Positions 2,595 to 30,195 of a stretch of DNA of 33,072 nucleotides are shown in pieces; the stretch's first letter is position 1, and every line of letters begins with the position of its first letter. A program made the position numbers and the translations under genes. The stretch spans positions 1 to 33,072 of IMG/VR virus record IMGVR_UViG_3300030108_004067; one strand, given 5' to 3'. Source of the stretch: a virus. The notes beneath the pieces were generated by a model. The model saw nothing but the letters and a program-made list of their open reading frames with translations, was not told the DNA's origin and did not search any database.

Positions 2595-2808
2595 GACTAT
2601 GGCGAAACGGCACACTTCTGAGTTAAGTAAGTTAGAACAATACATTTTAAAGAATGTAGCTTCTCGGAAGTGGAACAAGGAACAGCTCCATGCTGAGTTA
2701 GGCAAGGTCTACTGCTTAGGCATGAAACATTCCCAGCAGATCATCGCCATGATAACGGCAGCAGAACAAGCCACTACGTTTGAAGTAGAAACGAATCCTG
2801 ACGCTTAG
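2581..2808 (+). CDS. Hypothetical 75-aa helical protein, last gene of the left plus-strand operon
   Basis: The frame is open from 2533, but the ATG at 2581 (MSINKTM) or at 2599 (MAKR) is a better start because it limits overlap with the upstream gene. The product is helical and moderately basic, with a motif-like stretch of alternating K and E (SKLEQYILKN, KWNKEQLHAELGK). A small DNA-binding or protein-binding helical bundle is possible. Its stop (TAG, 2806-2808) overlaps the stop (TAA on the other strand, 2805-2807) of the giant convergent gene. Confidence 0.65.
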   Translation: MSINKTMAKRHTSELSKLEQYILKNVASRKWNKEQLHAELGKVYCLGMKHSQQIIAMITAAEQATTFEVETNPDA

Positions 2809-5800
2809 TCATCTATCTTGCTGAACCTAGTCCGTGTCTTCACGGCTTCAGCAAAGTCTCTAAGTCTCTCAGCCATCTTCGGCTCTTCTTCTGCTTCGGC
2901 CATCATGATAGCAACCTTGTTCGCGGATAGAACAGGACGCTCCATGTAGCCTTGCAGAAGAAGGGCCGCTCTGCGTTTACCGATCTTCGGTCCTCCACCC
3001 TTGCCACCAGATGCGATCCGATAGATCTCACCCTTGGTGAGTCCCATCTTCTCGTAAGCCTTAAACTTAGAAATCATATCTGCGTTAAGCTTCTCCAGTC
3101 TGGTGTATACACTGTCGTATATATCGTTCACCTCTTCAGTTGAGATTGAGTTCTCCTTTCTGTAGAGCGGCTTGAACTCTTCCCTGATCTGTGACCTTGC
3201 TTGCTCTGCCTTGAAGATGAATTGCTTCAGGGCTGTGTCAGGGTTCACAGGTCGTGTTCTTACCGGCGCGAACTCCTGAACGATGATACCTAAAGGGCTG
3301 TATTCAAATTCGGTATAGTCACCATCAGAATTCTGGTGTGCCAAGATAGCTTTCTGAAGTGTCCTTGGACTGAATGCGTTATCCGCAATAAAACCAAGTC
3401 TCTTTACAGCCTTGGCTAATCCGGTGTCCACACCCTCAACAAAGATTCTCTCTCCTGTTGTTTCGTTCACACCACTCTTAGCCTGAAGTATAGCTGACGA
3501 GAAGATCTGATCATCTAGGTATTGATCGAAGATGAACGAATTAAACAACGCTTCAAAAGCACTCTCTGGATTTGCGTCTGGATTGAGTATCTCTCCAGCC
3601 GTGGCGGTCATTGATTCCGTCACTGGTGAGAACGGGTTGAGGTATGTCAGGCTCAGTGTTCTCAGCTTACCGTCTGGTGTCCTGAAGTAGATTGGGTTTT
3701 GATACCGCGCCCACCTCGGACCAGCCGCCTTGATCGCTTCGTCTTCATCATCACTGACTCCGAAGATAAAGCGCATCAACACAGGCAACGCAGTTGATAA
3801 CCCACCGATAGTGAACCCGAACCCGCGCAGTCTTTGGAAACCTCGTTTTTTAAGAATTGGGTTTTCGCTATTGATCTCCTCGAAAGCAACCTTGGGTGTG
3901 TTATACATCACCTTGATCACATCAGCTTTGAACCTTACGAACGGAGCGAAGAGTGCTCCGACAGGCGATCTCTGAAATGCCTTCACGATTGGTGGAGCTT
4001 CTGAGTATGCCTGTGTCGTGCGAAGGACTTTGCGAGCAGCCTCTTTCTTAAGTTGCTGTTCATCCATCCTCCCCAGTTCAGATTCTGCATCGGTCTCCGC
4101 AGCCTGTGCTTCTCTAAGAACACGTAGCTCATTCTCAAACATGGCTATCTTGAAGAACGAATCCATAGCTGCCGCTAATCGTGGTGCCCTATCAAGTCCG
4201 ACTTTCTCCACACCTTTCTTAAGTGCGCTTTGTGTTCCGGTGATAAGCTTGTTGAACTCACCAACAACATCATCAAGCGTGGCTTCACCAGACATGAGTT
4301 GCTGCATGGTCTTAGTTCTACTCTCGTCACCGACGATTCGTAGCGCACGTAACTCGGCTATGTAATTATCGAGTTTAGCTTTGTCTCCTGACCAAGCTCT
4401 CCGTAGTTCACCCTGCACCAGTGCGTCACCACCACCGAAAATATTTGTCAAATAGTTCTTGTTAGCTTTCAGACCTCCAACAAAACCTAACTGCATCGGG
4501 CCGAAGAACAGGGAGTTGCTCAATCCGTTACGTAGGTAGAAGCCAATAGATCCAAGAGTCTTGCTGGCCATCGATAAACCAGTCAGGATCTGGAATCCTT
4601 TCAGGGACTTGGCTAAGATAGAGTCTGACTCACTGGCGTAGACGGTGCCGCTCTTCTTGAACGTAGCGGTAAATGCGTCTGCATAATCTCGGTTAGCATA
4701 CAAACCGGAGAGCGGGTTGAAGTCCTTATCACTCTCACTGTTTATTATTTTCTGCCAACCAACGTAGCGTTCGGAATTCGTATCGTATTCTTCTTTACTC
4801 ACCAGCCATCCTTTTTCTAAACCGGCCTTTGCGACTGAGTTAAGGAAGGCTTGGTTAGCAGCCATGTTAGCCACAGTCATGATGGATGAAAGCATCGCAT
4901 CAGGCGTATCCTTATCCTTCCGCTCACCAAGAAGATCCCTCAGAACCTTGGGCACATTCTTCTTAGCCTTGAGGGTCTTTATCATAGACCTCACCGACTC
5001 ATCGATTGCGAGAGCGTCAGCACTTGGCTTCTTCTCATAAGAAGAAATGAATGCCTCTAACGCTCTGTCACCAAGTCTTTTCTTTTTGATCTCATCGTCA
5101 ATGATCTGGTCTGCTTCTGTAGGTGTCTTGCCGTCGATGACCATCAGGTCATTCTTTCTCCCCTGCCTATATGTTTCTGTAAAGAACTTGATAGCAGCAT
5201 CTCTCCTGTCTTGATACCTCTCATCTTTCCTGACGGCATCAGCATAGCCAACGTCCAAGAACATATCGTATGTCCTTGTCAGGTAGATCCCAAAGTTATC
5301 GTCAATCTTAACTTTGTATTTACCAGACTCGTTATGGATCTCTTGCAGTTTAGCAGACAACCTGTCTAGCAAACCACGCAGCCCTTTCCCGTCTTCAGTC
5401 CCTATCACATTGTAAAGCTCCTGTGATTTAGCAGCTATCTTTTGCAGGGCAGCATCCCGCTTTGCTCTGATAGCGACCCTTGATCTGTCAAGTGCAGCAG
5501 CCTCGGCAACATCCCTTGCAACTTCCGCTGCCTCAACATCAGAGTCTAGCTGTCTCTTAATAGCAGCAGGTGAAGCGGACTTAGCCAGCGTGCTGCGGTG
5601 TGATTGCGTCCAAGCTGCAACCATGTCCGCATTGTAGTCGTCGTCTATCTTCTTTTGATCTAAATCAGATATGGTAGCCCCTGCTGTAGATCCGCTTGCA
5701 ATCTGTATCAGGCTCAAACCATCCTCGGTTGGGACACCATCGGGATACACCTGCTTTATCAAACGCTTCAGCTTACCGTGAACAATACCAAGTTCTTGCG

Positions 5801-8800
5801 ACATGGCATCTGACAAAGCATTACGGTGCTTCATCCAGTGATGGATCTCAGGCTGCAACAAGCCCACCGTATGTGTCTTTATAAACTTCCTGATATTCCC
5901 CATGAAACCTTTGTCGAAGACTTCAAGGTCTGACACTTCAAGTAGCGGCATGTCAAACTGCTCTATGAAATCGCCGTAGTTGAAATCAAAGGCATCAAAC
6001 TCGGAGTCTCCAGAACGCCTCTTGGTTCCAAACCCTGCGTAAAGGATACCGCCGTCATCAAGAACGGTGTCCTTCTTAAGATTAAATGTTGGAGCAAACA
6101 GTTCCAGAAGAGCTGCGTTGTCTGGGGTAGGGTTGGCTGTGCCTAGATCAAATTTGAATCTGTCACTTAAGGAAACAACTCTAGTTCCTCGGCCACGAAC
6201 CACTGCCTCTGTGCCAACTGAGTCCAGCCAAACACCATACATCTTTTCCGCTATGTCTTTCTCCTCTTCAAACAACTTGCTGGCTTCGACATACTCAGGA
6301 TTAGGAATCTCAACCTCTACTGCTTCGGGGTCTGTTGACTCTGAAGTTATGGTGGGTGACATCTTAGCCAACTCATCTTTGAGTCTGCTATACTCTTGCT
6401 GCCCCTTGATCAGTGAACCCTTATCTAGTTTTTGAATAGTTACTGTATGGGCTAGTTGCCTGAATGAATCTACGGTGACTCTCTCCTTTTGCTGCTCAAA
6501 TATACTTGCCGCTCTACTGTCGTTGTCACCACCTCTAGCAATATTGCGAAGGTAATCCTGCTCTACCTCTTCAAACGAGATAACATCTGGCGGAAGCGTC
6601 AAAGGCTCATCTGGATTAACGTCTTTAGATTTATTTGGATCAGCCGCCTCTTCATCTTCAGTTGGGTTGACGCCTGTAGTTGTCCGCATGAACTGACTGA
6701 CTGTCTCCTTCGGACTTGCGTTCGGGTCCATGACCGGAGCTGATCTATAACCCAGCTCAATGGAACGCAGAGTTACAAGCATACGCTTCACAGCAATGCG
6801 TTCGTCAGCAGACAATCCAGATGTCCCATCGTTGAACACCCTAATGAACTTATTGATAAACGTCTTTAAGTAGAAAGATATTGTTCCCAGCGTGCTTGGG
6901 TTGGACATAAAGAAAGCCTCGACCTCGGAACTACTCACCCCGAATCGTGCTTTCTCTACGTAATTAGCGAGCCGTTCTTGAACTAAAGTCTCTTTCTCTG
7001 CTGCGCTGATTTTGGAATCATCATTCTCTAATCGCGCCTTGGCTTGCTTCGCGGCCTCTGTCTCTTCGCCATAGTAGTTGTTAATGTCCTTTTCAAAGTC
7101 GGCGTTAGACGATTTATCGATGAGGTTGCCGATCATCGAACTGGTCAAAGCAGACTTGGCTGATTTGTGTCCGATCTCTTGCCGGATGAGTGTGGCTATA
7201 AGCTCGCGTCCTTGGAAATCAGATAGACCTTCATCCCGCACAGCAAAAGCTGCGTTCTTGGGATCAAAAACTAAAGTGTTTGTGTCACGGTTGAACGCCA
7301 TGACCTTTCCATTAGGTAGCGCGGCTACTTCAAAGTTAAGCTCACGCGGTTTGCGAGAGACGACAAAGGCTCTGAGGTTATCGGCAGTCTGCCTAAGTTG
7401 AACTATATCTTCTGGGCTAAGACCTTTCTGCTCTTCAATAGAAGATACATCAGCTCCTGTAGTAGCTTGGAAGTTAGCAAAACTTAAGTTCTCTTCTTTG
7501 GTTCTGAAAGGAACAGCGTCTACAGCCTCTTGTCTTTGTCCTGCTGGAGTGATTGGTTCTGACTTCTCGTAGTTCTGTGCATTGAGAGTTTCAAAGAATG
7601 CTGTTTGGAAATCTTTATCGGTTGCTGACTCAGGCGCTGCAATCCTCAACATGATATTAGAGACATCTCTGATGGACATCCCTTCTTCTAAGGTTGGCAG
7701 CATACCTCTGAAGTCTAATTGGAATTGTGTGTTCGTCATCATGTTTGATGCGAACTCTTCTAAACTTCCCTCAAGAGGTGTCTTTAAAGAGGTGCGTTTT
7801 TCATTCTTAGCCTTATCTCTTACTTTAATTTTTATATTAGCAAGCTCTTGCCTTGCCTTCTCAGTTTTGCGGCGTGCAGGTTTGCTTAGTTCAGCGAGAA
7901 GCAATCCGTGAAATGCTTCGTGTATTGTGTTCTCAATCAACCCACGGCCATTCCAAGCAGCAAGGTCCATTGCTATTTGAATCTGATCGCCAATACGCCG
8001 CGCCCTACCAGCGTAAGCGCCACTTCCCCTGTAGAAGTGGAAGTCAAATTTTGAAATAGCTTCTTGCACAGCAGCGTCTGATGACAAAATCAGCGCAGCA
8101 TTTCTTACAGACTCTGGGTAGTTAATGTTACCTTCACCATTTGCCACCCTATTAAAAGCGTTGTGGATTACTTTAGATGGTCTGGCAAACTCAGCTCCAG
8201 AAGTATTCGATGCTTCTAAACCAAAGCTAGTAGCTGTCGCAGTATTCCGATCAATAGCTATAGCCCTGTTCACAGCATTCTGGAATTCCGAGGCAGAGAA
8301 AAAGCTGCGTTCACCACTATGTTGTTTAATCAATTTGTGGACATTGTTTGCACGCTTTATCAGAGTCGCATCATCAACCTGCTCGTCATTCTCGACAGAG
8401 ACGGCTCTGACTTCTCCCAGCATCCATCGCACATACTTTTCTGAGTCGAGAACCTCTTTGTGCATATCAAGGATATCCTCGTCTGTTACAGAATCAGCAA
8501 GGTTCTGTCTAAGAAACTCCAGCGTATCAGGTGAGTTGCCTTTCCATATATTCTTTACGATTGTAAATGGTCCAAGAGCATCACCATTTTGATCTCTAGT
8601 TCCACTAACTGTGCCGAATCGGAATCCACCCATGTCGAACAAACGGAATGCTCGTTGCAAAGTTTCAACCGCTGGGTCTTCCCTTATTACATTCCCTTCA
8701 CGATCAAGCTCGACTCCAGTGTTACGTAGCTTTCTAAGAAACGCGATAGGCGCTGGGTTGTTTTCTTGGCTCGCTCGTTTTACATAAGAAGTTAGCTCAC

Positions 8801-11800
8801 CCCACTTGTCAGAAACTGAGTGGCTTTTCCAAAACGAAGCTGGAACTTCCCTGAAGGGGCCAGCCTTAAGAAGTTGATTAAGTGCTTTTTCTAATTCTGG
8901 CCTTGTTGAGATAACAGATACTGCTGCATCCTGAACGCCAGACATTATGTTGTCTATGTGTTCTGTATCAAAGGGCATATGCCCCATTGAAGTTTGCGGA
9001 CTAGAATCTCCTGTGAGGTCTACAAAGTCTTCGACTTCGCTAAGATCCACATTACCCTCACCAAACCCAGTCCTTGATTCTTTTTCAAGTCCTTGTCTAC
9101 CCGCTTGTTGTTTGAGCAAGCGATCAGTTACTGCGCGACCAACTTCTTTGTAGTCAAAGAGCCGGTCTCTGTTATTAAGGTTATTTCTTTTGTAGATACT
9201 TTCTTGGAAGAAAGATCTGAAAACAGCTCTGTAGTTGTCTTTCTCCCCAGCCTTCTTAACAGGCTGATCGATCTTATTGTTGAGAATAAACTCTGCGAAT
9301 TTACGCTTAGATTCAACGGTGACTTTTCCTTTATCTTTTCCTTTATCAGTATACTTTAAACCATCATACCCTTCTGCTTCAGCACTTCGATCAACATAAG
9401 ACAAGAATGTGTTTATGGCTCTGTCTATTTGACCCTCCGCAATATTTCCTTCTTCATCGAAGAATTTATCCAGCGCCTTCCTAATTTGGAACAGCTTAAC
9501 TTCGGTAGAATACTCAGCCAAAAGCTGAGAAGAAGCTTCCTGAAAGTTATCTTCAGTAAGCTCTGCTGCCCTTGTTCCTGCAAAGCCAGTTAAGAAAGAG
9601 CGTAGTTTATTAACCGCCTCTTTTGGATTCTGTGTGATCAAACCACTATTGCCACGGGCCTTTGCCTCGTTCTCAATAGCGTTACGTGCAAGCACATCAA
9701 ATGACTCTTCCTTATTTCGTTCTGCATTAGCAACTGCAAGCCGGATAGCATCCGTAGCAAGCTCAGTTCTTGCAGCTTCATTAGCCGCTGCGAGTGCATC
9801 AGTTGCTTCATTGTAAGTATCTAGTTTTTCTTTAAGTCTTTTATCTGTCGCAGCGCGGGTCTCAACATCCCTTAAAACTACAGACTCAAGTTCAACTAGA
9901 TACGCTTGCCTTTCTTCTCGGGCACGGAGCAGATCCTGATCATTTGTAGATTCGTCTACAGCCTTATCAAATATGGCTAATTGTTTGGCTGCATTTTCAA
10001 ATACGGTGGTGTCTTGATCAGTCAGTTCAGAGACACTGAATGAACCTGTAGCATCCTCTGTTTCTATAACGGTATTAGCATTTGTAATAATGTCGTTAAG
10101 AGCACTGATCAGATTAACGACTGTAGTCTTGGCTCCTACGGCAAAGCCGTTGGGGTTGTCTAACTCAAAATCACTCTCCTTTATAAACTTACCCATCTCG
10201 GTGCGCTTTTCAAAGTCACGCCGATTGATTGCGCCTGTTATTTCTTTAGCAAGTTTTACACTATCAAGTTCCCCCCGCTCGTTTACCCCTATGATATCAT
10301 ATATTCTTCTGCGACCTCCTAGTCTTTCAAATCGGAAAGCAGGGTTCAGAACTCCACTAAAGTCTTCGGGGATATAAACATCTATGTTCCTCTCCATGAG
10401 GACTTTCATGGATATGGGATCGTTGTCAAAAACACCTTCTCCAAAAGAATCCACAAACGCAAGGGGCCTGTAGCTTGTTGTTCTCTCCGGCTGAACTTCG
10501 GCAACGTAACGCTCTACGCCACGCTTATCCATTTCTGGTCTCAAGGAACCCGTCCTTCTTACTTTTCTGGAAACAACATTCCCGAAACGGCCAGACCTTT
10601 CAAACTCCCAAGGACTGTATGCTGTTATCTTGTTTTGTGATCTTACAGATGCGCCATTAAACGGTTTAGAAACATTCAGCACTGGGTAAAGACTGTAGAT
10701 ACGTTCGGCAACAGAAGCCAAACCCCTATCGTAAAAGCCTTTACGTTTTGCTTCGGTGTCACGTTGAGTTTCCACCCCATACGTTGTCCCATTTTTATCA
10801 GAAAAAGAACCTGTCGGGAGCAACCCATAATTAACAATTCTCTCTAAGCCCTCTTTTTCTTTTTCGGTTACGTTCCCAGCCCAATTAGAACGCAAAGATG
10901 TGGAGGCAATCTCTGGGCCACGTTCTAAAAACGCGACGAAGTTTTCTAGTTTAGTGAAACCAGCACCAGCTCCCTTTGGATCAGAAGGAAGTTCGCCCAC
11001 CTCATGGAATACACGATTACCATTCACTATGCTGGATGTAACGAACACACGATCTCCAGCGACATCGACAGGGATAATCGGGCGGCTGCCCTTTTTCACA
11101 ACTACGTTCCCGTTCTTATCAAGATCTGCTTCAAACAATTCCCTGACCTTTTCTCTGGACCCTTTGTATACATATACGGGTTTGCCATCTTTCTTCGATT
11201 CCTCGATAGCTTTTTTAATAGCCTCTTTCCTGTTTGCTTTTTTCAGGGCTTTTAATCTCTTACCAAGAGCTTTCCCTCTTTCGATTTCAGCAACGGTGTC
11301 AGAGTAAACACCTGAGTCATTTAGTTTATTGATCTCCTTAATTCTGCTTTTGAATAAATCATTTACAGACAGCTCTTTTTTACGGCCAGCAGCTTCTCGA
11401 TTTACTTCAAGCAGGACATTAAGTTCCTCGGTCAGTTCAGGTATAGTCGCCGTGGGCTTGTTGTCTTTGTCATAACCCTTAAATTTTTTGTTTTGTTTTC
11501 TGATAGCAGATACCAACTTAGAGTATTGCTCGGCGTCAGCATCTGTTTCTATTGGTTCAACAAGCTTCCTTTTCCCAATCGTTATTCCTTCTTGGGATAA
11601 AGCTTCATCACGTAAGACTACCTTGATGCTTGTGGTCCCTGTCAGACCCTTTGCAAAATTATCAGCGGCTGCTTTGTTTTTGAATGTTCCTACAAGTGTA
11701 GCACCGCCTCTTTTCGCTTCTTTGCCCTTTTGTGTTTCTGGATCAGGGATTATCTCATTGAAGTCATATACGTTATCTCGGGTTTCAAACGTCCCTACTT

Positions 11801-14800
11801 CCTCATCGACTGCTACTACTTTTACCTTTTCAGGTTCAAATTCTTCATTGTTAATAAAGACTGTATCTCCTTCTTTGGGTATCTTAACAGTGTCTGTTTC
11901 TTCTTCTGCTTCCTCTGCGGTTTCCTCAACTTGATAAACTTCGTAGCGCCTAAAACGAGTGTCCGCTTCAGGGGTAAATATAACTTCGGATTTATCCCGT
12001 GATTCTAATGTCGTCGCATCTACACTCGCTATAAACGCCTGTTCTTCATCAGTCAGTTCTTTGCCAGCATCAGATTTTTTTATGATCCTACCAAGTTCTG
12101 CTAACAGTTTATCTTGATCAGAGATTGGAACTCTATCGGCTAAAGCCCCCGATCTTTCTGCCTGTCTTATGAAGGATGTTAATGATGGAGTTACCCCGCT
12201 TTTAGGAAGCTGTGCGTCTCTCCTTATGAAAGAAACATTTTGAGATTTGTCAGCGGTTGTTACCGCTACAGAAGAAGTCTCTCCTGTCAAAACGCCAACA
12301 TTACGAGGTCTTTCAAATGGACCTATTGTGCCATCAGTTTCACCACTAAACTGTGGGACGGTTGGAGAAAAGACATCGAAGTCCTGCTCACCAGTTTCAA
12401 GAGACACAATGATTGGACCTGAATCTTTTGAGGTGCCTATTGTTTCTGGAACAGGTATGAACTCTTCGTCAACAAGACCACGGCCAAAAGCTCCTTGTCC
12501 TTCTAAGCCCCTGACATAATTTATCTCCTGATAAATTGTTTGGTCAGACGCTTGACGGAAAGCCTCGATAACTTCGTCTGCTTGTTCGGATACATCTTCT
12601 GGGACAACTTCTGCCGCGAGGTCTTCTGCATCAGCGTCTTCTTGTGATAACCTTTGGTTTAAATCTTCAGTAGTATCTAAATCTGCACGGAGGATATCCC
12701 CGACTACAGTTGCTGTTATCTCACTGTTTGTCTCCCTAAGTCTAGTTGTTATATCCTCGATAAGCTGGTTCTCCAGTGCGCCAGCCTGAACCGTTTCTGC
12801 CATCCGGTCAGGGCGTAGCCTTCTCGCAGCAGCACCAATCGTTGGAGCAGCCGCACCAAGAATACCTCCAAGAGTTCCTGCATACAGCGAGTGTTTTGCG
12901 TGGTCAAAGAGTGGTGTGTCCTGTTCCAGTCCTGCGTCTGTTACGAACGTGTTTACAAACTCATCGAGTGCCTCCTCTGCAAACTCTTCTCCTCCAGCGC
13001 GTATAGCAGACTTGCCGAAGAAGTTATTACGCATCATTTCTTTACCAGACTTTTTAATAGCCTCGGAAAACACTGCATCGCTAACGCCGTCGATTGTTAC
13101 GTTATCTGCATTTTGAACAACTCGTTCAACCACGGTCTTCATGTTGCGGTATGACATACCGCTAAGGAGTGCGTTCTCCATACCACCGCGACCGAAGTAA
13201 GAAAACGATCCGGTAATCAATCCTGTTCCCGTTCCGGCAACCATTGCGGTTCCCATTGCGCGGTCGTGTGCTTCTTGTTCTGTAGCGCCAGAAGCGAGCA
13301 TTTGACTGTAAACAGTTCCGTAAGTGGCGCTGGCTGATCTGTTCGCGGCGGTAAGTCCGATTGCAGAGGTTGTTACATTCTTCAGGTTGACACGGTTGTA
13401 TGCTTCAAGGGCGTCGAGAGCAGTCCTGCTGGTAGCGTTCTTGATCAAACCTTGAGCCGCTAGATTCTCAGCTAACTCTTCAGCTCCTTCTGTAGCTCCT
13501 CGTCTGAAAGCATTTGTGGTAAACGCTTTTAAGAGACCTTTCTTTGTCAGGCTATTATACAGAGGCGCTTTAGCTGCGGCTGCTTTTACTGCTAAAGCAT
13601 TTCCACCAAATCGAGATAACAGTGCAGTCGCACCAATGTCTACAGTGACTTCAGGTATGAGCTTCGCAAGATCCTGTGCCATCCCCAGTTCACCACCAAA
13701 AAGCTCGGTCAGTTCTCTGCGTCTGTTGTTGTCTTCGGCAATGTTACGGAGGTGTGACTTAGCCCAGTCAGCATCGGCCAAAGCAAATACTGTAGAGAAC
13801 GCTGATGTGAATGGTCGGAATATGTCTCTGCCCTTGAGGTAAAGATCTCCAATAAGAGGAGCGTCAAAGAAAGGCTCTTTGCCTTCTTCTTTAACGGCTG
13901 TGACAAACGATGTCAGGATTTGTGTGTCCGACATCTTAGACTCCCTACCGGCAACGACATGATCCAGCCACTCCTTGGACATATCAGAGTTGCTGAGTGT
14001 TTTATTTATGTTGGCAAAGTTGGCAGCAACAGCAGCGTCTCTGTCAGCTTTGATTGCCTTGACTGTAGCGGGGCTTAGATCCGTCCTTGCTTGCAGCGAC
14101 CGCTCAAAGAGTTTGTCGTCTAGTTTTACAGAGAGCGGTATGAACGGAAGTCCGTATCCATCGTCCCTGATATTTTTACCGACTTCTTCGTCGCTCTCAA
14201 AAACCTTCAACGGTGCGCCCTTGACTGCTATTTCTTGTAGCGCGGTGCGGATATCGTCTGGAGCCTTATTGAATTTTTTAGCCATCGACATAACGATGCC
14301 ATCAATATCGTCCGACATTGCCTTATCGATTGCTCGCTCTGTAGTCGTGCCGTCAGGCTTGGATCCTGAAAGTGCTCCTATCGCAGATTCAAAGACACCC
14401 CTGATTGGGAGGCCAATGTATTTTCGGAAGCCTTCTTCAAAATGGTCAAAGGTGCTGTAGTCCTCTTCTGCCATTCTTTTCCCAATCGCAGCTACCTGTA
14501 TCTGGAGTTGCTTATCGTTCTGTATCTCAGATTCAATGAGGCTTTCTGCTTCATTGAGCTGGATCATTTTGTAACGAGGCACGGACATCCCCTCGGGGGT
14601 TTCAATCAGACCTGTGCTATTGATGCTCAGAGCATCCAGCATACTTACATCACCACCCCCTTTGTTCGACATACGCAGTGCTTCATGCAACGGCATAGTC
14701 TCAACTAAATCGTTAGCCTTAATAAAAGAGTTACCGTTAGTATCTGTGAAACGACCGAAGGCAATCTCACCTGCGTCTAGCTTGGCTTGCATCACATCAT

Positions 14801-15281
14801 TTCGTGTGCGTGCTACAGACGCTAAAACACTTTCTTCTAAAGAAGCTAGTTCTTCGGGAGAAGCTGTGTCTTTTAATTGCAAATACTTTGCACCATTATG
14901 CCAGTCATCCTGCTCTAAGCCAGAATGAGCAACCATATCACGAACTTGTTGCTCCAGAGAAGGACGGTTGTAAGCGTCTATCTGCGCCTGAACTTCTGGT
15001 GCGTTCTCGTCACTAAGAAGATTCTTCTGAACTAGCGCGGCACCCAGCTCTTCCTGAATCTTGGTCTCAACCCCACTGTTAAAAGCTTTGCGCTTTACGT
15101 ATTCCTCTCGCAAGTAGTCTCCATACCCAAGGTGTCTATCAACTTCGTTTTCAATATTCTTGTCAGCAGACCATTCGTCGTAACTAGAAACCTTGATTGG
15201 TTTTACTTCTTCGGGGTCGGACGGCAGTAGTGATGCGCTGCGTGCAAGGATATCCGATGGATTGAACTGTTCTTCTGACAT
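2805..15281 (-). CDS. Giant 4158-aa polyvalent-like protein with tandem zincin motifs
   Basis: This uninterrupted gene fills 38% of the window. N-terminal region (1-900): helical, with two short similar segments centred on an EGAEELAEN or GGEEFAEEALDE motif (about 593-611 and 758-776) and Gly/Ala-rich hydrophobic stretches (about 675-700 and 798-822). Middle: very acidic linkers (about 850-1130), basic helical stretches (about 1290-1400) and a long coiled-coil-like tract. At 2454-2458 lies HEAFH, with a possible third ligand at E2508 or E2509: a zincin metallopeptidase. At 2701-2705 lies QEIGH, a second zincin-like segment lacking the first His, with E2769 and E2776 downstream. C-terminal region (about 3590-4158): hydrophobic helices and RSPVGALFAPFVRFKAD (about 3771), resembling LPD38-type domains of large polyvalent proteins (recalled, unchecked). 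It is last in an operon starting after terL, so it is probably a virion or ejected protein. I see no polymerase, helicase or methylase motifs. Confidence 0.93.
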   Translation of the reverse strand: MSEEQFNPSDILARSASLLPSDPEEVKPIKVSSYDEWSADKNIENEVDRHLGYGDYLREEYVKRKAFNSGVETKIQEELGAALVQKNLLSDENAPEVQAQIDAYNRPSLEQQVRDMVAHSGLEQDDWHNGAKYLQLKDTASPEELASLEESVLASVARTRNDVMQAKLDAGEIAFGRFTDTNGNSFIKANDLVETMPLHEALRMSNKGGGDVSMLDALSINSTGLIETPEGMSVPRYKMIQLNEAESLIESEIQNDKQLQIQVAAIGKRMAEEDYSTFDHFEEGFRKYIGLPIRGVFESAIGALSGSKPDGTTTERAIDKAMSDDIDGIVMSMAKKFNKAPDDIRTALQEIAVKGAPLKVFESDEEVGKNIRDDGYGLPFIPLSVKLDDKLFERSLQARTDLSPATVKAIKADRDAAVAANFANINKTLSNSDMSKEWLDHVVAGRESKMSDTQILTSFVTAVKEEGKEPFFDAPLIGDLYLKGRDIFRPFTSAFSTVFALADADWAKSHLRNIAEDNNRRRELTELFGGELGMAQDLAKLIPEVTVDIGATALLSRFGGNALAVKAAAAKAPLYNSLTKKGLLKAFTTNAFRRGATEGAEELAENLAAQGLIKNATSRTALDALEAYNRVNLKNVTTSAIGLTAANRSASATYGTVYSQMLASGATEQEAHDRAMGTAMVAGTGTGLITGSFSYFGRGGMENALLSGMSYRNMKTVVERVVQNADNVTIDGVSDAVFSEAIKKSGKEMMRNNFFGKSAIRAGGEEFAEEALDEFVNTFVTDAGLEQDTPLFDHAKHSLYAGTLGGILGAAAPTIGAAARRLRPDRMAETVQAGALENQLIEDITTRLRETNSEITATVVGDILRADLDTTEDLNQRLSQEDADAEDLAAEVVPEDVSEQADEVIEAFRQASDQTIYQEINYVRGLEGQGAFGRGLVDEEFIPVPETIGTSKDSGPIIVSLETGEQDFDVFSPTVPQFSGETDGTIGPFERPRNVGVLTGETSSVAVTTADKSQNVSFIRRDAQLPKSGVTPSLTSFIRQAERSGALADRVPISDQDKLLAELGRIIKKSDAGKELTDEEQAFIASVDATTLESRDKSEVIFTPEADTRFRRYEVYQVEETAEEAEEETDTVKIPKEGDTVFINNEEFEPEKVKVVAVDEEVGTFETRDNVYDFNEIIPDPETQKGKEAKRGGATLVGTFKNKAAADNFAKGLTGTTSIKVVLRDEALSQEGITIGKRKLVEPIETDADAEQYSKLVSAIRKQNKKFKGYDKDNKPTATIPELTEELNVLLEVNREAAGRKKELSVNDLFKSRIKEINKLNDSGVYSDTVAEIERGKALGKRLKALKKANRKEAIKKAIEESKKDGKPVYVYKGSREKVRELFEADLDKNGNVVVKKGSRPIIPVDVAGDRVFVTSSIVNGNRVFHEVGELPSDPKGAGAGFTKLENFVAFLERGPEIASTSLRSNWAGNVTEKEKEGLERIVNYGLLPTGSFSDKNGTTYGVETQRDTEAKRKGFYDRGLASVAERIYSLYPVLNVSKPFNGASVRSQNKITAYSPWEFERSGRFGNVVSRKVRRTGSLRPEMDKRGVERYVAEVQPERTTSYRPLAFVDSFGEGVFDNDPISMKVLMERNIDVYIPEDFSGVLNPAFRFERLGGRRRIYDIIGVNERGELDSVKLAKEITGAINRRDFEKRTEMGKFIKESDFELDNPNGFAVGAKTTVVNLISALNDIITNANTVIETEDATGSFSVSELTDQDTTVFENAAKQLAIFDKAVDESTNDQDLLRAREERQAYLVELESVVLRDVETRAATDKRLKEKLDTYNEATDALAAANEAARTELATDAIRLAVANAERNKEESFDVLARNAIENEAKARGNSGLITQNPKEAVNKLRSFLTGFAGTRAAELTEDNFQEASSQLLAEYSTEVKLFQIRKALDKFFDEEGNIAEGQIDRAINTFLSYVDRSAEAEGYDGLKYTDKGKDKGKVTVESKRKFAEFILNNKIDQPVKKAGEKDNYRAVFRSFFQESIYKRNNLNNRDRLFDYKEVGRAVTDRLLKQQAGRQGLEKESRTGFGEGNVDLSEVEDFVDLTGDSSPQTSMGHMPFDTEHIDNIMSGVQDAAVSVISTRPELEKALNQLLKAGPFREVPASFWKSHSVSDKWGELTSYVKRASQENNPAPIAFLRKLRNTGVELDREGNVIREDPAVETLQRAFRLFDMGGFRFGTVSGTRDQNGDALGPFTIVKNIWKGNSPDTLEFLRQNLADSVTDEDILDMHKEVLDSEKYVRWMLGEVRAVSVENDEQVDDATLIKRANNVHKLIKQHSGERSFFSASEFQNAVNRAIAIDRNTATATSFGLEASNTSGAEFARPSKVIHNAFNRVANGEGNINYPESVRNAALILSSDAAVQEAISKFDFHFYRGSGAYAGRARRIGDQIQIAMDLAAWNGRGLIENTIHEAFHGLLLAELSKPARRKTEKARQELANIKIKVRDKAKNEKRTSLKTPLEGSLEEFASNMMTNTQFQLDFRGMLPTLEEGMSIRDVSNIMLRIAAPESATDKDFQTAFFETLNAQNYEKSEPITPAGQRQEAVDAVPFRTKEENLSFANFQATTGADVSSIEEQKGLSPEDIVQLRQTADNLRAFVVSRKPRELNFEVAALPNGKVMAFNRDTNTLVFDPKNAAFAVRDEGLSDFQGRELIATLIRQEIGHKSAKSALTSSMIGNLIDKSSNADFEKDINNYYGEETEAAKQAKARLENDDSKISAAEKETLVQERLANYVEKARFGVSSSEVEAFFMSNPSTLGTISFYLKTFINKFIRVFNDGTSGLSADERIAVKRMLVTLRSIELGYRSAPVMDPNASPKETVSQFMRTTTGVNPTEDEEAADPNKSKDVNPDEPLTLPPDVISFEEVEQDYLRNIARGGDNDSRAASIFEQQKERVTVDSFRQLAHTVTIQKLDKGSLIKGQQEYSRLKDELAKMSPTITSESTDPEAVEVEIPNPEYVEASKLFEEEKDIAEKMYGVWLDSVGTEAVVRGRGTRVVSLSDRFKFDLGTANPTPDNAALLELFAPTFNLKKDTVLDDGGILYAGFGTKRRSGDSEFDAFDFNYGDFIEQFDMPLLEVSDLEVFDKGFMGNIRKFIKTHTVGLLQPEIHHWMKHRNALSDAMSQELGIVHGKLKRLIKQVYPDGVPTEDGLSLIQIASGSTAGATISDLDQKKIDDDYNADMVAAWTQSHRSTLAKSASPAAIKRQLDSDVEAAEVARDVAEAAALDRSRVAIRAKRDAALQKIAAKSQELYNVIGTEDGKGLRGLLDRLSAKLQEIHNESGKYKVKIDDNFGIYLTRTYDMFLDVGYADAVRKDERYQDRRDAAIKFFTETYRQGRKNDLMVIDGKTPTEADQIIDDEIKKKRLGDRALEAFISSYEKKPSADALAIDESVRSMIKTLKAKKNVPKVLRDLLGERKDKDTPDAMLSSIMTVANMAANQAFLNSVAKAGLEKGWLVSKEEYDTNSERYVGWQKIINSESDKDFNPLSGLYANRDYADAFTATFKKSGTVYASESDSILAKSLKGFQILTGLSMASKTLGSIGFYLRNGLSNSLFFGPMQLGFVGGLKANKNYLTNIFGGGDALVQGELRRAWSGDKAKLDNYIAELRALRIVGDESRTKTMQQLMSGEATLDDVVGEFNKLITGTQSALKKGVEKVGLDRAPRLAAAMDSFFKIAMFENELRVLREAQAAETDAESELGRMDEQQLKKEAARKVLRTTQAYSEAPPIVKAFQRSPVGALFAPFVRFKADVIKVMYNTPKVAFEEINSENPILKKRGFQRLRGFGFTIGGLSTALPVLMRFIFGVSDDEDEAIKAAGPRWARYQNPIYFRTPDGKLRTLSLTYLNPFSPVTESMTATAGEILNPDANPESAFEALFNSFIFDQYLDDQIFSSAILQAKSGVNETTGERIFVEGVDTGLAKAVKRLGFIADNAFSPRTLQKAILAHQNSDGDYTEFEYSPLGIIVQEFAPVRTRPVNPDTALKQFIFKAEQARSQIREEFKPLYRKENSISTEEVNDIYDSVYTRLEKLNADMISKFKAYEKMGLTKGEIYRIASGGKGGGPKIGKRRAALLLQGYMERPVLSANKVAIMMAEAEEEPKMAERLRDFAEAVKTRTRFSKIDD
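6954..7181 (-). other. Degenerate zincin core 2 in the giant protein (QEIGH)
   Basis: Residues 2701-2705 read QEIGH after the amphipathic lead-in ELIATLIR. A strand pair (VMAFNRDTNTLVFDP) precedes it and ERLANYVEKA (E2769, E2776) follows. The layout mirrors a zincin fold, but the first zinc ligand His is Gln (codon CAA, 7179-7181). It is therefore probably a pseudo-protease or a reader domain. Homology to core 1 is inferred from layout only. Confidence 0.5.
7753..7922 (-). other. Zincin metallopeptidase core 1 in the giant protein (HEAFH)
   Basis: Residues 2454-2458 read HEAFH in a helix preceded by LIENTI. About 50 residues downstream, SLEEFASN supplies E2508 or E2509 as the likely third zinc ligand, the usual gluzincin arrangement. 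All canonical ligands are present, so this copy could be an active protease. Substrate unknown: it could be the giant protein itself, other virion proteins or host proteins. Confidence 0.75.
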
Positions 15282-15313: not shown

Positions 15314-16363
15314 TTACTTTGTTGGAGCCGCACCCCAACTTCCGATGCTCTTAACATCTTTTTTCTTAGCAGACCCGTAAAGGTCCATCTGTCTTTGTAA
15401 ACTTCTAAACTTTAGATTTGTAATGGCTTGCTTAAGGTCAGGAATAAACTGATCCATGTTAGCAGCACCTGCCACAAAAGTTTGGGTATCATCCGTATTC
15501 ATACCCAGCGCGGTTGCAATCTGAATACCAATCTGCGCTGCTCGTTGTTTTGATTCTTCAGAATATTCTTTAGGTTGGCCTCCAACAAAGGGGCCAAGGT
15601 CATCATCCAATCCACCACTAGGTGCTGTTTTTTCAAGCTGGTCAATTTCTCTAAACAATGTGGAGTAAAATTGGTCTTGGGTTTCTAATCCTTTGATTTC
15701 AGATTCCCGTGCAGCCTGATCAGCAGATCTTTGCTGCTTACCTTGCACAGCTTCAGCAAACTCTTCAATGGTGCTATCTGGTCTTACGCCTTGCTGTGCC
15801 ATTGCAAATCCTCTGGACTCTTCATTTGACTTAGCCTTGTTGACATCTTGGTAAGTTTTAAACAAACCAGTAAACTCAGTAGCATTAGGATACTGAGCTG
15901 CAACCCTTGCTTGCAGTCTACTTGCTTCGGCAGCTTTGTCGAAATTGTTTAGGTTAGGATTCTTGTCGATATCCATCAAGGCACCCAATACTTGTGGCAT
16001 ACGTTGTGCGATCTCACCCTGCTGTTTTGCTTTGGCAGCAGTGGCTTGCAAATCAAACATGGCTTTTCGCGCATTGATGTCTGCTGTCCGCATTGCCATA
16101 CGCTGCGACTCTTGCTGCATACGCAACTTCTCCATGTCGATAGCCGCTTTGTCCTGCCGTGCCCTTGCAGAATCCAACATGTCCTGCATTTGTTGCAAGT
16201 CTTGCATAGCTGCTTGGCGTTCCCTCTGATTCATATCATCAGTAGGCAGCATACTTGCTATTGCTTCGGGTCCAAACATCTGACCGCGCATACCCCCAGC
16301 CATGTTTTGCGGCTGGAGAGCACCGTAGATTTCGTCAGGAGCGATAGGGTTGAAGGTAGCCAT
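15314..16363 (-). CDS. Putative internal virion protein, 349 aa, coiled coil
   Basis: Family not recognised. After a Met/Gly-rich start the protein has a long Gln/Met/Arg-rich coiled-coil region (about residues 45-115), then helical segments, a Gly/Asp-rich hinge (SGGLDDDLGPFVGG, about 250) and a final helix. There is no signal peptide or enzyme motif. It lies between the 609-aa and 4158-aa genes, with 20 and 32 bases of spacing, so the three are almost certainly one transcript. In short-tailed phages, Gln-rich helical proteins beside a giant protein often form the internal core or ejectosome (compare T7 gp14, gp15 and gp16). That role is inferred from context, not from similarity. Confidence 0.8.
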   Translation of the reverse strand: MATFNPIAPDEIYGALQPQNMAGGMRGQMFGPEAIASMLPTDDMNQRERQAAMQDLQQMQDMLDSARARQDKAAIDMEKLRMQQESQRMAMRTADINARKAMFDLQATAAKAKQQGEIAQRMPQVLGALMDIDKNPNLNNFDKAAEASRLQARVAAQYPNATEFTGLFKTYQDVNKAKSNEESRGFAMAQQGVRPDSTIEEFAEAVQGKQQRSADQAARESEIKGLETQDQFYSTLFREIDQLEKTAPSGGLDDDLGPFVGGQPKEYSEESKQRAAQIGIQIATALGMNTDDTQTFVAGAANMDQFIPDLKQAITNLKFRSLQRQMDLYGSAKKKDVKSIGSWGAAPTK

Positions 16364-16383: not shown

Positions 16384-18213
16384 TTAAAGGACTGGTATGG
16401 GAGCGCCATACATTGGTTGAGGTGGCATTGTCATTTTGTACCCGACAATCGGTCTTACCATTCCAAATTGATTATTTGGATCTACAGGATTAAACAGAGG
16501 TTGCTGTGTGGTCCCTAAGCCTCCCATCATCCTAGCCATAGCTATTTGTCGCGCTAAATCGTCCCTTCTGGCTTGCGCTTGACGACCAGCAGCGGTGCTC
16601 ACAGCACCTCCTCTGGAACCAACTTGGCGTCTGGCCCCTAGCTTGCCTATGCTCAAACCACCACCTTGCGTGTTCCTGTTAAAGAAGTTTTCGTAGGATT
16701 CACTAAACCCTTTATCAAGTAATCCTTTACCCCGTAGAAATGCTCTAATTTGAGACGGCTCAAGACCTAGCTCTTCGCCACGCTTGTAAGCGTCCACCAT
16801 GAGTTTCTGTCTTGTCTCTGGATTTTGGAACGCACTTGATGGTGCATCACTGTAACTAAAGTCACCTTCTAGTCCTCTGGCGAATAGCTTGCGGGCCTCT
16901 AATCTTTCTGCGTCTGATTTTTCTTTATCGTCCGCTGCCTTAGCTGTCTCACTTGCCATCTGCTCCACATTTCTCCCAAAGCTGGCTAGTTGTTTTCCGA
17001 TACTAGCCCCCCCTCTACCTAAAGCCTTTGCTCCTTCACGCGCCTCTTCTATATCTGCTTCAGCTTGCGCCTGTCGGCTTCTTGCCAAACTAGCTTTGAA
17101 CCCTATTTCTGGATCAAAAATGCTTCTTCTTTCTTGAGAAGAAAGTTTTCCGTCTTTGTCAGCGTCGAAAAGCTCCATCAAAAATTCAGGGTTTTCTCTA
17201 GCTGTTTGAGCGAAAGCAGCTCTATCTTCAGGCCCGAAGAATTTATCAGCATCACTTGCTGTAGCGCCTTGTCTTCTTTTAATTATGTCTTCGTAAGTCG
17301 GATTATCAATTTTTGGATTGCCTGTTTTGCCTCTTCTTTTTGCTGATTCGGCCTCTATCGCCATAAGAGCATCCTTCTCTGCTTCTGCAAACTGTGGGTC
17401 TGCGGCTCGTCCTAACAAGAATCGTTCACCGAGTGATCCTGCAAACTTGCTAGGAGCGAATTCAGTTCCAACGCCTTCCAGACCACTGAATGTTTCTTGC
17501 AAAGCTCTTCTTCTGAAATCCAATCTGCTTTCGTCTTCTCGCATAGCGCGTTTCTGTGCTGCTTCACCTTCAGTCGTATTCAGTGGGTCAACCGCTTCAA
17601 AACCTTTTAGGTCTCCTTCTCCAATTTGAAATAACCCTTGAGCTGCTGCACTGAGAGCGGCACCCGGATCAAGTTGCGCTTTAAGGACTCTCCCAGCGAC
17701 ATTACCAGCAGTCCCAAGTGCGGTTGCTTCTTTAGTTACTTCATTAGTTTTAGGATCATATTCAACGTCACTAAATCCACCGCCGAATTTACCTACTTGT
17801 TCTTTCCTAAGCGCCTCTGCTTCTGGGCTGTCACCCATTGCACCAATACCCTCTGTCGCTATATCAAAAAGCTGTGCGCCAGCCGCGAAAGGACCAACCT
17901 TACTTACAACAGGTAAAGCTACTTTACCAAGAGGTGCAGCTACTTTACCCGCAGTCCTAAGAGTTCCTCTAGCAGTCGGTGCTCCTCTATTTAAAGCAGC
18001 GCGTGCTCGTCCAAGTCTCCCTTGATTCTTTGGTCCTTCTACGGGCCTGTCATCTAAAATACCCAGATTAACAGCTTTTGGAATTCTGCTACGTAATCCC
18101 GTGCCACCACCTGTTTGTGTTGATCTTGCTGCCTCGGCTGCTTTAGCAGCTTTCCTCTTAAGTTCTGCTTCCTGAAGCATTCGGCGTCTTACGCTTTCTT
18201 GTATGGCGGTCAT
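16384..18213 (-). CDS. Putative virion protein, 609 aa, with one EF-hand-like loop
   Basis: Family not recognised. The N-terminus (1-30) is a basic, Ala-rich helix. Residues about 75-125 are an Ala/Gly/Val-rich stretch that could contact membrane. Residues 350-361 read DADKDGKLSSQE, a full match to the 12-residue EF-hand calcium loop (D1, D3, D5, G6, L8, S9, E12), flanked by helices (FLMELF before, RRSIF after). A helical, Glu/Ala-rich region follows (380-440), and the C-terminus is Gln/Met/Pro-rich and probably disordered. The gene sits 12 bases after the 117-aa gene and 20 bases before the 349-aa gene in the terL-distal operon. A structural or ejected virion role is likely; calcium could tune assembly or stability. 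Confidence 0.82.
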   Translation of the reverse strand: MTAIQESVRRRMLQEAELKRKAAKAAEAARSTQTGGGTGLRSRIPKAVNLGILDDRPVEGPKNQGRLGRARAALNRGAPTARGTLRTAGKVAAPLGKVALPVVSKVGPFAAGAQLFDIATEGIGAMGDSPEAEALRKEQVGKFGGGFSDVEYDPKTNEVTKEATALGTAGNVAGRVLKAQLDPGAALSAAAQGLFQIGEGDLKGFEAVDPLNTTEGEAAQKRAMREDESRLDFRRRALQETFSGLEGVGTEFAPSKFAGSLGERFLLGRAADPQFAEAEKDALMAIEAESAKRRGKTGNPKIDNPTYEDIIKRRQGATASDADKFFGPEDRAAFAQTARENPEFLMELFDADKDGKLSSQERRSIFDPEIGFKASLARSRQAQAEADIEEAREGAKALGRGGASIGKQLASFGRNVEQMASETAKAADDKEKSDAERLEARKLFARGLEGDFSYSDAPSSAFQNPETRQKLMVDAYKRGEELGLEPSQIRAFLRGKGLLDKGFSESYENFFNRNTQGGGLSIGKLGARRQVGSRGGAVSTAAGRQAQARRDDLARQIAMARMMGGLGTTQQPLFNPVDPNNQFGMVRPIVGYKMTMPPQPMYGAPIPVL

Positions 18214-18225
18214 GATGTAATTTTT

Positions 18226-18579
18226 TTAAAGGCCGACAGTGCCTTCGTATTGCTTAATCTGTGAGTTCGGGTTCCTACCAAGTCCTCGGTAAGAAGCCAT
18301 CGGTGAAGTGCTTGGGGTTGTTGAGTCGCCTACAGCTCCGGTGTTCCGTCTAGGAAGCGGCTGTTTTCGCGCCTCCTCCATTGCTTTCTTTCTTTCAGCT
18401 TCACGTTTTTTTCTTTCACGCTCTTCCTCTTCCTCGTCTTTTTTCTTCTTCTTCTCCGCTTCTGGTAACGCATCTACGTTTGCTTTTGCAGAAGCAGAGC
18501 CATCTGCAAAACCTGAAATAATATTTAGGAACGGGTTTCCCGTGTCGTAATTACCTAAATCTTCGGGGAAAAGAGCCAT
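18226..18579 (-). CDS. Hypothetical 117-aa protein with highly charged helix
   Basis: Family not recognised. The middle third (about residues 42-73) is a Lys/Glu/Arg-only stretch, likely a single charged helix, flanked by disordered Ser/Pro/Gly-rich segments. The start (MALFPEDLGNYDTGNPFLN) resembles short linear tags on small phage structural or scaffold-like proteins. It is the first gene after the promoter at 18606-18634. A small virion or assembly factor is the best guess. A plus-strand open frame here (18308-18550) is Ser/Phe-rich and is a shadow. Confidence 0.72.
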   Translation of the reverse strand: MALFPEDLGNYDTGNPFLNIISGFADGSASAKANVDALPEAEKKKKKDEEEEERERKKREAERKKAMEEARKQPLPRRNTGAVGDSTTPSTSPMASYRGLGRNPNSQIKQYEGTVGL

Positions 18580-18606: not shown

Positions 18607-18634
18607 TATTATGATTTAAGGCTTTTCATGTCAA
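18606..18634 (-). promoter_or_regulatory. Sigma70-like promoter for the 117/609/349/4158 operon
   Basis: Read on the minus strand, TTGACA (18629-18634) is followed by exactly 17 bases and then TAATAT (18606-18611). The -35 box is a perfect consensus and overlaps the TGA stop of terL. The expected start is near 18599, giving a leader of about 20 bases to the ATG at 18579. This would let the virion/ejection operon be expressed separately from terL. Sequence match only. Confidence 0.6.
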
Positions 18635-20418
18635 TCAAGCAAAACGGCACCAGAGTTCTGCAAAGCTCTACCTAGATCCTTAATTGTCTTTGGGCGTTTA
18701 TTATAATTCTTTGCACCCTGTTTAGGTGGGTCAACTGCTACCAGACCCAAACGCTGTCTAGCACAATCCAAGGCTAGAAACGCTGCGTCCGCAAGGTCTG
18801 GACTGCTGCCGAATCTAGCTTTGAACTCAGGCTTGGACTCAATTTTGACACGTAGCGTTCCACTTTTTACCATGTCGTAGTTTCGGCTGGTCATTTCACT
18901 GGCCAGATTTGCAGTGATTCCGAACACCTGCTGGGTCCGCATCAATTCTTTTCCGACGAACCACAGCTCAGATACTCGGTTCATATAGAGTTCCTCTCCA
19001 ACTAACTGACTACTAGCACTTACCCTCTTGTCACTGGCTTTTCCCCCGAACCCGACACGCATGAATTTGTTCGACCACTCACCAGCAAGCACATCACAAA
19101 ATGGGGCACCCGCTCCTGTGGCATCGACCGCTACGTTCTCTGCCAGAATTTTGTTTTTCTCACAGTGATCTTTAATCTGCCGGACAATCTGATATGTGCG
19201 CGGAACTGCTTTATTTGTAGCGTCATCGTTAAGGTGGATAGCCTTGTCGAACTCTATTACGTAATGTCCGTTTTTATTATACCCGACAGTAGCAGTGTAT
19301 AAGATGGTCCGGTCACCCCCGTTTGTAAATGCAGGGTCAAGACCCGCGACCTTGGTGGTTGCTCCCTCCCACTCTACACGGTTCATAGCCCCACTCATGG
19401 TCAGCTCGTTCTCGGTGTATATGCCAGTGGTTTCATCAGAGTCAAAGAACACCGCACGAACCATTCGCATGTATCCCCGTGACTCCTCCCCCAGCAAAGC
19501 CCTGTCTTCATCAAGCTTTTGCTGTGTCGGTAGCCACGGATAAACAACCTCCCCCGCGAGGACATTGGGGCTACGCTCCCCATCGAGCCTTAAATACTGA
19601 CCGTCCCACTTAGTTTTCCATTTGTCATCGACATTCGTGTCCACAGAGTCCCACCCATTTTTAGGTTCAGACCAAACCCCAAAAGCATCAAAGCGGCTGT
19701 TTGGGTTAGACATCCCGATCATTTGGAAGTGTGGGTTCTTAGAAAGGTTTGTCAGACCAGCGTTTACAATACTTTCAGAAATCTCTGAAAGCTCATCGCC
19801 AATCAAGATAACTCGTTTTTGTTTTATACCGATAAGCTTATTGGTCGCCTCTCGCGTCCTTGCTTTCTCGGCGGCTACCAGTGAAAGCCCTGCCCTCTCA
19901 ATGAGTGTTCCACTTTCGTTTACGTAACTTGCGTTGCCTATTGAGTCTCTGATCTTAATTGGCGCTCCTTCAATAACCGTGAGAAGCGTCATTACAGAAC
20001 CCCATATCCGTTTTCTCGCTTCCCGCAAAGTGGTGGATGTCATCAAAACAAGGGTGTCCTGTGGTTGCGATAACCAGTTGATAATGCCCCACGCAGCCAT
20101 CGTGTGACTTTTCCCTGATGATGCAGAACCACCAATCGACAAATATTTATTTTTTATTGCCGCCCGTATCATTTTTTCAGCCCACGGATGCTTTACCATA
20201 AGCTTTTCTGGTAAGTCTGCGTTGTTCCAAAGCTCATCGCACACACGCCAGAAGTAAAACTCCTTTGCGCGTGGGGCATCGTGGTTTGCAAAACCATACA
20301 ATAACCCTGTCAAGAGACTCGTTGGGGGTATCAACAAACCCCCAACATCCATCTTCTTGGTCTTTGGATCGATGCGTGGCTCCAGTATCGTCTTGAAGGA
20401 CCGCTTCTTCTTCGCCAT
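18631..20418 (-). CDS. terL: Terminase large subunit (packaging ATPase and nuclease)
   Basis: The 595-aa product has the normal two-domain layout and length. ATPase domain: Walker A GGSASSGKS (96-104), Walker B VILIGDE (203-209, with D208 and E209 as metal and catalytic acids) and a coupling motif SNPNSRFD (from about 237). RNase H-like nuclease domain: D361 in AGLDPAF, D432 in VAVDATGAG, and D531/D534 in SSPDLADAAF. All three acidic positions are present, so the protein should cut and pump DNA. It acts at the portal, which is not in this window. Unusually, it is transcribed away from the HTH gene that looks like the small subunit, with only 26 bases between the two starts. The promoter candidate at 20430-20458 would give a leader of only about five bases. 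Confidence 0.95.
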   Translation of the reverse strand: MAKKKRSFKTILEPRIDPKTKKMDVGGLLIPPTSLLTGLLYGFANHDAPRAKEFYFWRVCDELWNNADLPEKLMVKHPWAEKMIRAAIKNKYLSIGGSASSGKSHTMAAWGIINWLSQPQDTLVLMTSTTLREARKRIWGSVMTLLTVIEGAPIKIRDSIGNASYVNESGTLIERAGLSLVAAEKARTREATNKLIGIKQKRVILIGDELSEISESIVNAGLTNLSKNPHFQMIGMSNPNSRFDAFGVWSEPKNGWDSVDTNVDDKWKTKWDGQYLRLDGERSPNVLAGEVVYPWLPTQQKLDEDRALLGEESRGYMRMVRAVFFDSDETTGIYTENELTMSGAMNRVEWEGATTKVAGLDPAFTNGGDRTILYTATVGYNKNGHYVIEFDKAIHLNDDATNKAVPRTYQIVRQIKDHCEKNKILAENVAVDATGAGAPFCDVLAGEWSNKFMRVGFGGKASDKRVSASSQLVGEELYMNRVSELWFVGKELMRTQQVFGITANLASEMTSRNYDMVKSGTLRVKIESKPEFKARFGSSPDLADAAFLALDCARQRLGLVAVDPPKQGAKNYNKRPKTIKDLGRALQNSGAVLLD

Positions 20419-29886: not shown

Positions 29887-30195
29887 TTATTTAAATCTTT
29901 TACAGAACCTTTCCCACGCTGGAAAAAATAGTTCTTCTATACACACTACCAAACTTTCTTCTTGAAAGCTATCTAATCTATCTAAGCCGCTGAACGCTAA
30001 ACAAGCATGGAGCATTTCATGTCGTATTGTTGATTTTACATCTGCGGGTTTAAGGTTTTCGTCTATTACAATAGTTTTCCGCTCATGAGAATAGTATCCG
30101 TAATACCCTTTAGAGCGATTGTTCTCATCACTTAAGTCTTCTTTTACAATCTTAACGGGAACTCCCGCTATGTGGATACTTTTGGGGAGCCTCAT
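29887..30195 (-). CDS. Stand-alone small zincin metallopeptidase-like protein, 102 aa
   Basis: The protein has a strand pair (GYYGYYSHERKTIVIDENL), then the helix TIRHEMLHACLAF with H59, E60 and H63 as the HExxH zinc site, and then EESLVVCIEELF where E79 or E80 can be the third ligand. It therefore carries a complete minimal zincin site in a single small domain. No signal peptide is present, so it would act in the cytoplasm or in the virion. It overlaps the amidase gene by four bases. It might process virion proteins, such as the giant protein, or degrade a host factor. Substrate unknown. Confidence 0.82.
   Translation of the reverse strand: MRLPKSIHIAGVPVKIVKEDLSDENNRSKGYYGYYSHERKTIVIDENLKPADVKSTIRHEMLHACLAFSGLDRLDSFQEESLVVCIEELFFPAWERFCKRFK

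Follow-up and report, generated by a model that had tools for sequence, protein, structure and literature searches.

Two literatures describe the closest counterparts of the protein studied here. For large polyvalent proteins, injection was predicted by Iyer et al. (2017, PMC5512222). The N4 ejectosome consists of proteins of 16.5, 66, and 383 kDa, the largest of which passes the tail after the others, and the C1 region of N4 gp50 carries an HExxH motif (PMC12633501). N4-like virion RNA polymerases (vRNAPs) were published as cysteine-free, and disulfides were suggested to hinder tail passage (PMC3915230, PMC4837373). In phage PhiM1, the model of gp48 ("Tetrameric ejection protein") lies in the capsid interior, above the portal (PMC11440229). 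We analyzed the whole IMG/VR record IMGVR_UViG_3300030108_004067 (33,072 bases, classed as linear; hereafter the window) of an uncultivated marine phage, in which one gene encodes a protein of 4158 amino acids (aa), here called the giant. Our results indicate that the giant is very probably the final and largest member of a DNA-ejection cassette (ejectosome) of four genes, and that its conserved chassis of N, zincin, and C blocks would carry swappable cargo. It joins the large polyvalent proteins to the ejectosomes of T7, N4, and PhiM1.

A preliminary description of the window had reported a single uninterrupted minus-strand gene that closes an operon beginning at the terminase large subunit gene (terL). 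Both points held. The open reading frame (ORF) starts with ATG and has no internal stop, and the operon runs terL, 117-aa, 609-aa, and 349-aa genes, with the giant last. The order terL, one to three genes, a gene of ~314-409 aa, and the giant was found in 25 of the 25 relatives examined. Through the terL operon, the giant is encoded among late or virion genes, as large polyvalent proteins are. The search for the giant in 35 related contigs revealed it in 30, nearly always as one long open frame; a weak match in contig G027 contains a stop. We compared 27 homologs, 26 of them whole (3030-5134 aa, the longest thus larger than the window copy) and one cut by the contig end. Because these 26 are single open frames, the frame of the giant is not a product of chance.

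Pairwise and multiple alignment gave a common plan of an N block, a variable middle, a zincin block, a variable slot, and a C block (Table 1). Around aa 521-841, the N block has segments that are rich in Gly/Ala and mildly hydrophobic. The middle is common over most of its length to the six nearest homologs only, and the slot, which spans aa 2901-3104 in the window copy, exceeds 1000 aa in some relatives.

Table 1. Positions of the giant, its blocks and motifs, and the genes of its operon in the window
Feature	Position	Strand	Remarks
Giant protein, 4158 aa, no cysteine; probable ejected large polyvalent protein	2805..15281	(-)	ATG start, uninterrupted
N block, aa 1-880	12642..15281	(-)	Conserved in all 27 aligned relatives; no known homolog
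Variable middle, aa 926-2424; probable cargo/linker	8010..12506	(-)	No PDB match
Short conserved element, aa 1595-1700, GVF(D/N)NDP motif, within variable middle	10182..10499	(-)	Most relatives; no known match
Zincin block, aa 2425-2900	6582..8009	(-)	Profile matches 9sfn_G and 8vb2_A (PhiM1 gp48)
HEAFH metal-binding motif, zincin core 1, aa 2454-2458	7908..7922	(-)	Conserved column
QEIGH, degenerate second zincin-like core, aa 2701-2705	7167..7181	(-)	First His lost
Spacer/slot between zincin and C block, aa 2901-3104	5970..6581	(-)	GNAT, methyltransferase, and DUF7178 matches there in relatives
C block, aa 3105-4158, helical, conserved	2808..5969	(-)	Homologous to phi18:3 gp123, HTVC027P gp85, and Y3 WPJ21803
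349-aa protein, cysteine-free; probable ejectosome partner	15314..16363	(-)	Family precedes giant in every relative examined
609-aa protein, cysteine-free; probable ejectosome partner	16384..18213	(-)	Size like N4 gp51, without demonstrated sequence homology
117-aa protein, cysteine-free; probable ejectosome partner	18226..18579	(-)	Size like N4 gp52, without demonstrated sequence homology
Terminase large subunit (terL), operon start	18631..20418	(-)	phrog_2, E 4e-16

The C block links the giant to a protein detected in virions. Its profile (hidden Markov model, HMM) matched gp123 of Cellulophaga phage phi18:3 with E 4.5e-42, and the record of gp123 describes a structural protein with "experimental MS/MS proteomics analysis" (MS/MS, tandem mass spectrometry). 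It also matched HTVC027P gp85 (E 3e-44) and WPJ21803 of Pseudoalteromonas phage Y3 (E 2.4e-63). In a Foldseek search, the C-block model had 37 viral matches at E<=1e-3, with phi19:3 gp129 and proteins annotated "Large polyvalent protein associated domain" (LPD) among the best; the matches to LPD-annotated proteins, each taken as a whole, had E down to 1.4e-19 and prob 1.00. In large polyvalent proteins, the predicted fold matched the C-terminal ends. Pfam found no LPD domain in the giant. The Y3 homolog (L086:3843-17217) is split into two adjacent genes, of which the second is mostly C block; the annotation of this second gene is ADP-ribosyltransferase, and the Y3 paper counts it among the auxiliary metabolic genes (PMC11654794).

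The zincin-block profile matched two PDB entries far above the rest: 9sfn_G, an "Internal virion protein" (E 2.8e-10), and 8vb2_A, PhiM1 gp48 (E 5e-9). Against PhiM1 gp48 alone, the independent E-value was 1.6e-13 and the match included ILLHEAAHA. A weaker match, to the C1 region of N4 gp50, scored 22.2 bits, where the best of 300 shuffles that kept HExxH reached 5.7. Homology to a known podovirus ejection protein was found for the zincin block only, and not for the N and C blocks. Two zincin-like cores had been proposed for the giant, and the first was confirmed, with HExxH at the HEAFH column in ~20 of the 27 relatives. The second (RQEIGH) lost its first His. Since Gln replaces this residue and most relatives have NEExxH there (RHELAH occurs in the two closest only), core 2 of the window copy is at best a degenerate core. 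Against the PDB, Foldseek gave nothing below E 0.03 for the models of the zincin and C blocks; the small metallopeptidases jannalysin and selecase were weak fold matches (prob up to 0.72). With core 1, the giant has the zincin-like metallopeptidase domain that is common, though not universal, in large polyvalent proteins.

In PhiM1 gp48 itself (L169:8198-11989), it is residues 382-518 that match the zincin block, with the HExxH at residue 385. Residues 268-528 were reported as endolysin/exotransglycosidase-like (PMC11440229); judged by its motif and profile match, the region 382-518 may be a zincin-like domain.

These homologies bear on whether the giant could instead belong to a long-tailed phage and act as its tail tape measure, the length of the protein setting that of the tail. 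The giant is very long and helical and is encoded in a late operon, and a tape measure of 5002 aa with a fused RNA polymerase is described for P23-45 (PMC10770324). We consider this explanation highly unlikely, because the zincin block matches internal virion or ejection proteins, and Y3, the cultured phage with the best match to the C block, is short-tailed (PMC11654794). Nor is the giant followed by any recognised tail gene or matched by a PHROG tape-measure family, and conserved ends around a variable interior are unlike a ruler. In addition, a close relative encodes a separate tape-measure-like protein of 341 aa (L114:1499-2524, phrog_9483, E 7e-11). The relative that holds this phrog_9483 protein otherwise appears to be short-tailed.

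The giant and its three upstream partners have no cysteine in 5233 aa, where 57 were expected from the other genes of the window (1.09% cysteine; log10 P = -24.8, simple binomial). The 114,732 aa of the family's giants include 7 cysteines, and none occurs in 24 of the 28 proteins. Among ORFs of 19 related contigs, 52 of 53 in the cassette (at least 250 aa, downstream of terL) were cysteine-free and 0 of 74 others were, with a Fisher p of 3.5e-35 that is an overstatement because related genes and ORFs are not independent. Known systems behave alike: N4 gp50-52, T7 gp15 and gp16, PhiM1 gp48-50, phi18:3 gp121-123, and HTVC027P gp82-85 are cysteine-free as well, T7 gp14 has one cysteine, and most portals, tail proteins, fibres, and terminases contain the residue. 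Exceptions to the signature are T7 gp9, N4 gp56, and a 405-aa protein in relative G001, so that it is supportive and not proof. Cysteine exclusion had been noted for the virion polymerases of N4-like phages; here it extends to whole ejection cassettes, in several groups of phages, and it could offer an inexpensive way to predict which proteins of unannotated phages are ejected.

A cytoplasmic effector made during infection and absent from the virion could also be proposed, given the polyvalent-type enzyme domains in relatives. We give it very little credence, as the giant shares an operon with terL, its cysteine exclusion is common to known ejected proteins, and its C block is shared with the MS/MS-detected virion protein.

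Comparison with the 68-kb relative G001 gave DNA identities of 93.5% over terL and 11 kb of replication genes and of 96.6% over the 0.5 kb directly 3' of the giant. The proteins of the four cassette genes are only 36%-65% identical, beside a TerL that is 99% identical. The edges of this block are sharp, at window positions 18210 and 2795, where similarity (to G001, loci L002, L090) falls from 93%-97% to little or none at the DNA level. From these alignments, the cassette appears to have been replaced as a unit, which fits expectation because its proteins must fit one another. The homology to the MS/MS-detected protein, the zincin homology, the cysteine exclusion, and the divergence of the cassette all argue for the virion association and ejection suggested in the preliminary description.

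In relatives, the slot that follows the zincin block had matches to GNAT, methyltransferase, and DUF7178, and a variable region of one relative examined matched ART-PolyVal. DUF7178 alone was above its curated cut-off; the other three were below it and are leads only. As for several activities in one polypeptide, the window copy has the zincin only, and its relatives add these weak GNAT, methyltransferase, and ART-PolyVal matches. The variable middle (aa ~926-2424 of the window copy) is a probable cargo or linker region. The whole giant had no match in Pfam (E<1) or PHROG, aa 1-2100 had none by tblastn in GenBank phages, and profiles of the N block, C block, middle, and 349-aa family found nothing credible in the PDB. 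One PDB profile match, to a designed helical protein (E 0.0011), was taken as chance. The label of large polyvalent protein given earlier to the giant is nevertheless favoured by the fold matches of the C block to LPD-annotated proteins and by the unrelated enzyme-like domains of the relatives.

No block profile matched an RNA polymerase in the PDB, which agrees with the first reading of the protein. This result bears on a third explanation, a divergent N4-type vRNAP composed of N, polymerase, zincin, and C parts, whose polymerase diverged beyond recognition. The order of the parts is that of N4 gp50 (PMC12633501) and the protein is cysteine-free; it is the last gene of its operon, facing the opposite strand; its zincin module matches N4 C1; ORF30 of Y3 was called an RNA polymerase by PSI-BLAST (PMC11654794); and ~1500 aa of the middle are unexplained. 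Together with the missing polymerase match, a C block unrelated to N4 C2 and a middle that is the least conserved part in the family, unlike a polymerase core, make this explanation improbable. Because a polymerase was undetected and the C block is unrelated to N4 C2, the ejected giant would work like the N4 system without being the N4 vRNAP.

The likeness to N4 gp50-gp51-gp52 lies in a cysteine-free giant encoded last in a cysteine-free cassette with proteins of ~600 and ~100-150 aa, an N-terminal region suspected to meet the membrane, and an HExxH module followed by a helical C region of ~1050-1100 aa; a fourth gene (349 aa) in the cassette sets the giant's system apart. PhiM1 gp48 (PDB 8VB2) and T7 gp16-like proteins share the homologous zincin block and a position as the last gene after two other cysteine-free internal proteins, but the giant is three times longer and its N and C blocks are not shared. 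The C-block homologs phi18:3 gp123 and phi19:3 gp129 (1871-1935 aa) are also cysteine-free, with zincin and N blocks not found by profile. Phage Y3 has adjacent cysteine-free genes, WPJ21802 and WPJ21803 (3421 and 1027 aa), with HExxH in the first and the C-block homolog as the second, whereas the giant is unsplit and its N and zincin profiles do not match Y3. The giant resembles large polyvalent proteins (PMC5512222) in its very large size, zincin, location near late genes, C-block fold, and the ART, GNAT, and methyltransferase-like domains of its relatives. It differs from them in that the window copy has no Pfam-recognisable LPD or enzyme domain, and in its constant ends and variable interior at 3030-5134 aa within one phage family. 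The suggestion of a new type of injected protein was only partly right, since both this class of proteins (Iyer et al., 2017, PMC5512222) and a layout like that of N4 were already known.

What was computed is the homology of the C and zincin blocks, the cysteine exclusion, the operon position, the divergence of the cassette, and the fixed ends with a variable interior; packaging and ejection in this phage, a role of the N block at the membrane, peptidase activity, and a cargo function are inferred. The simplest reading is an ejectosome ending in a large polyvalent protein, with N4 as the working model. The giant would be made late and packed in the head with its three cysteine-free partners. 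It would then be pushed with the DNA through the tail and cell envelope as a threadable chain in which no disulfides are possible. The C block would form the head-packaging part or ejectosome body, the N block would perhaps act at the inner membrane, and the zincin may serve for self-cleavage or for a cut made in the envelope or the host. Cargo that acts in the new host would sit in the variable stretches (the middle and slot). Because its ends are fixed and its middle exchangeable, the giant looks like a reusable vehicle for payload delivery. It is possible, if doubtful, that it is a general injected vehicle whose constant cysteine-free N, zincin, and C modules carry varied unrecognised enzymes, here a payload of ~1500 aa whose fold or activity is new among phage effectors. 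Such a chassis-plus-cargo protein, varying across one marine phage family, would separate the parts for packaging and passage from the payload.

Several observations weigh against the ejectosome reading. The giant is known from genes alone, in this phage and its close family, and the MS/MS-supported phi18:3 gp123 shares only the C block with it. The core-1 HExxH has been lost in contigs L082-L085, which have an N-block identity of ~60%, and therefore proteolysis cannot be essential in all. The C block compared with N4 C2 gave an hhalign probability of 0.2 percent, no better than controls, and nothing clearly above chance with PhiM1 gp48 or T7 gp16. The structure models are of middling confidence, with a predicted local distance difference test score (pLDDT) of ~70-71 for the zincin and C blocks (C block 69.7). 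With no PDB match for the portal and adaptor candidates, the podovirus morphotype is inferred from cultured relatives and the ejection homologies.

A membrane-type C-terminal region, proposed earlier, was not borne out: the one marginal segment (aa 3824-3842) has a Kyte-Doolittle value of 1.51, below the mean maximum of shuffled copies (1.88). In relatives, the hydrophobicity of this segment is comparable (median 1.61).

The record probably covers about half of a genome, because relatives with the same TerL reach 59-68 kb. A tblastn search of GenBank phages found no match to TerL; relatives of it (63%-99% identical) are plentiful among marine viral contigs. A search for the host with the terL profile in bacterial genome contigs matched only contigs of metagenome-assembled genomes of unrelated taxa (planctomycete, Opitutae, and flavobacterium), which are probably binning artefacts and were set aside. 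Elsewhere in the window, a 102-aa protein adjoining an amidase (29887-30195, minus strand) has an HEMLH motif and matches phrog_1233 and the metallo-protease family phrog_87 (E 8e-5).

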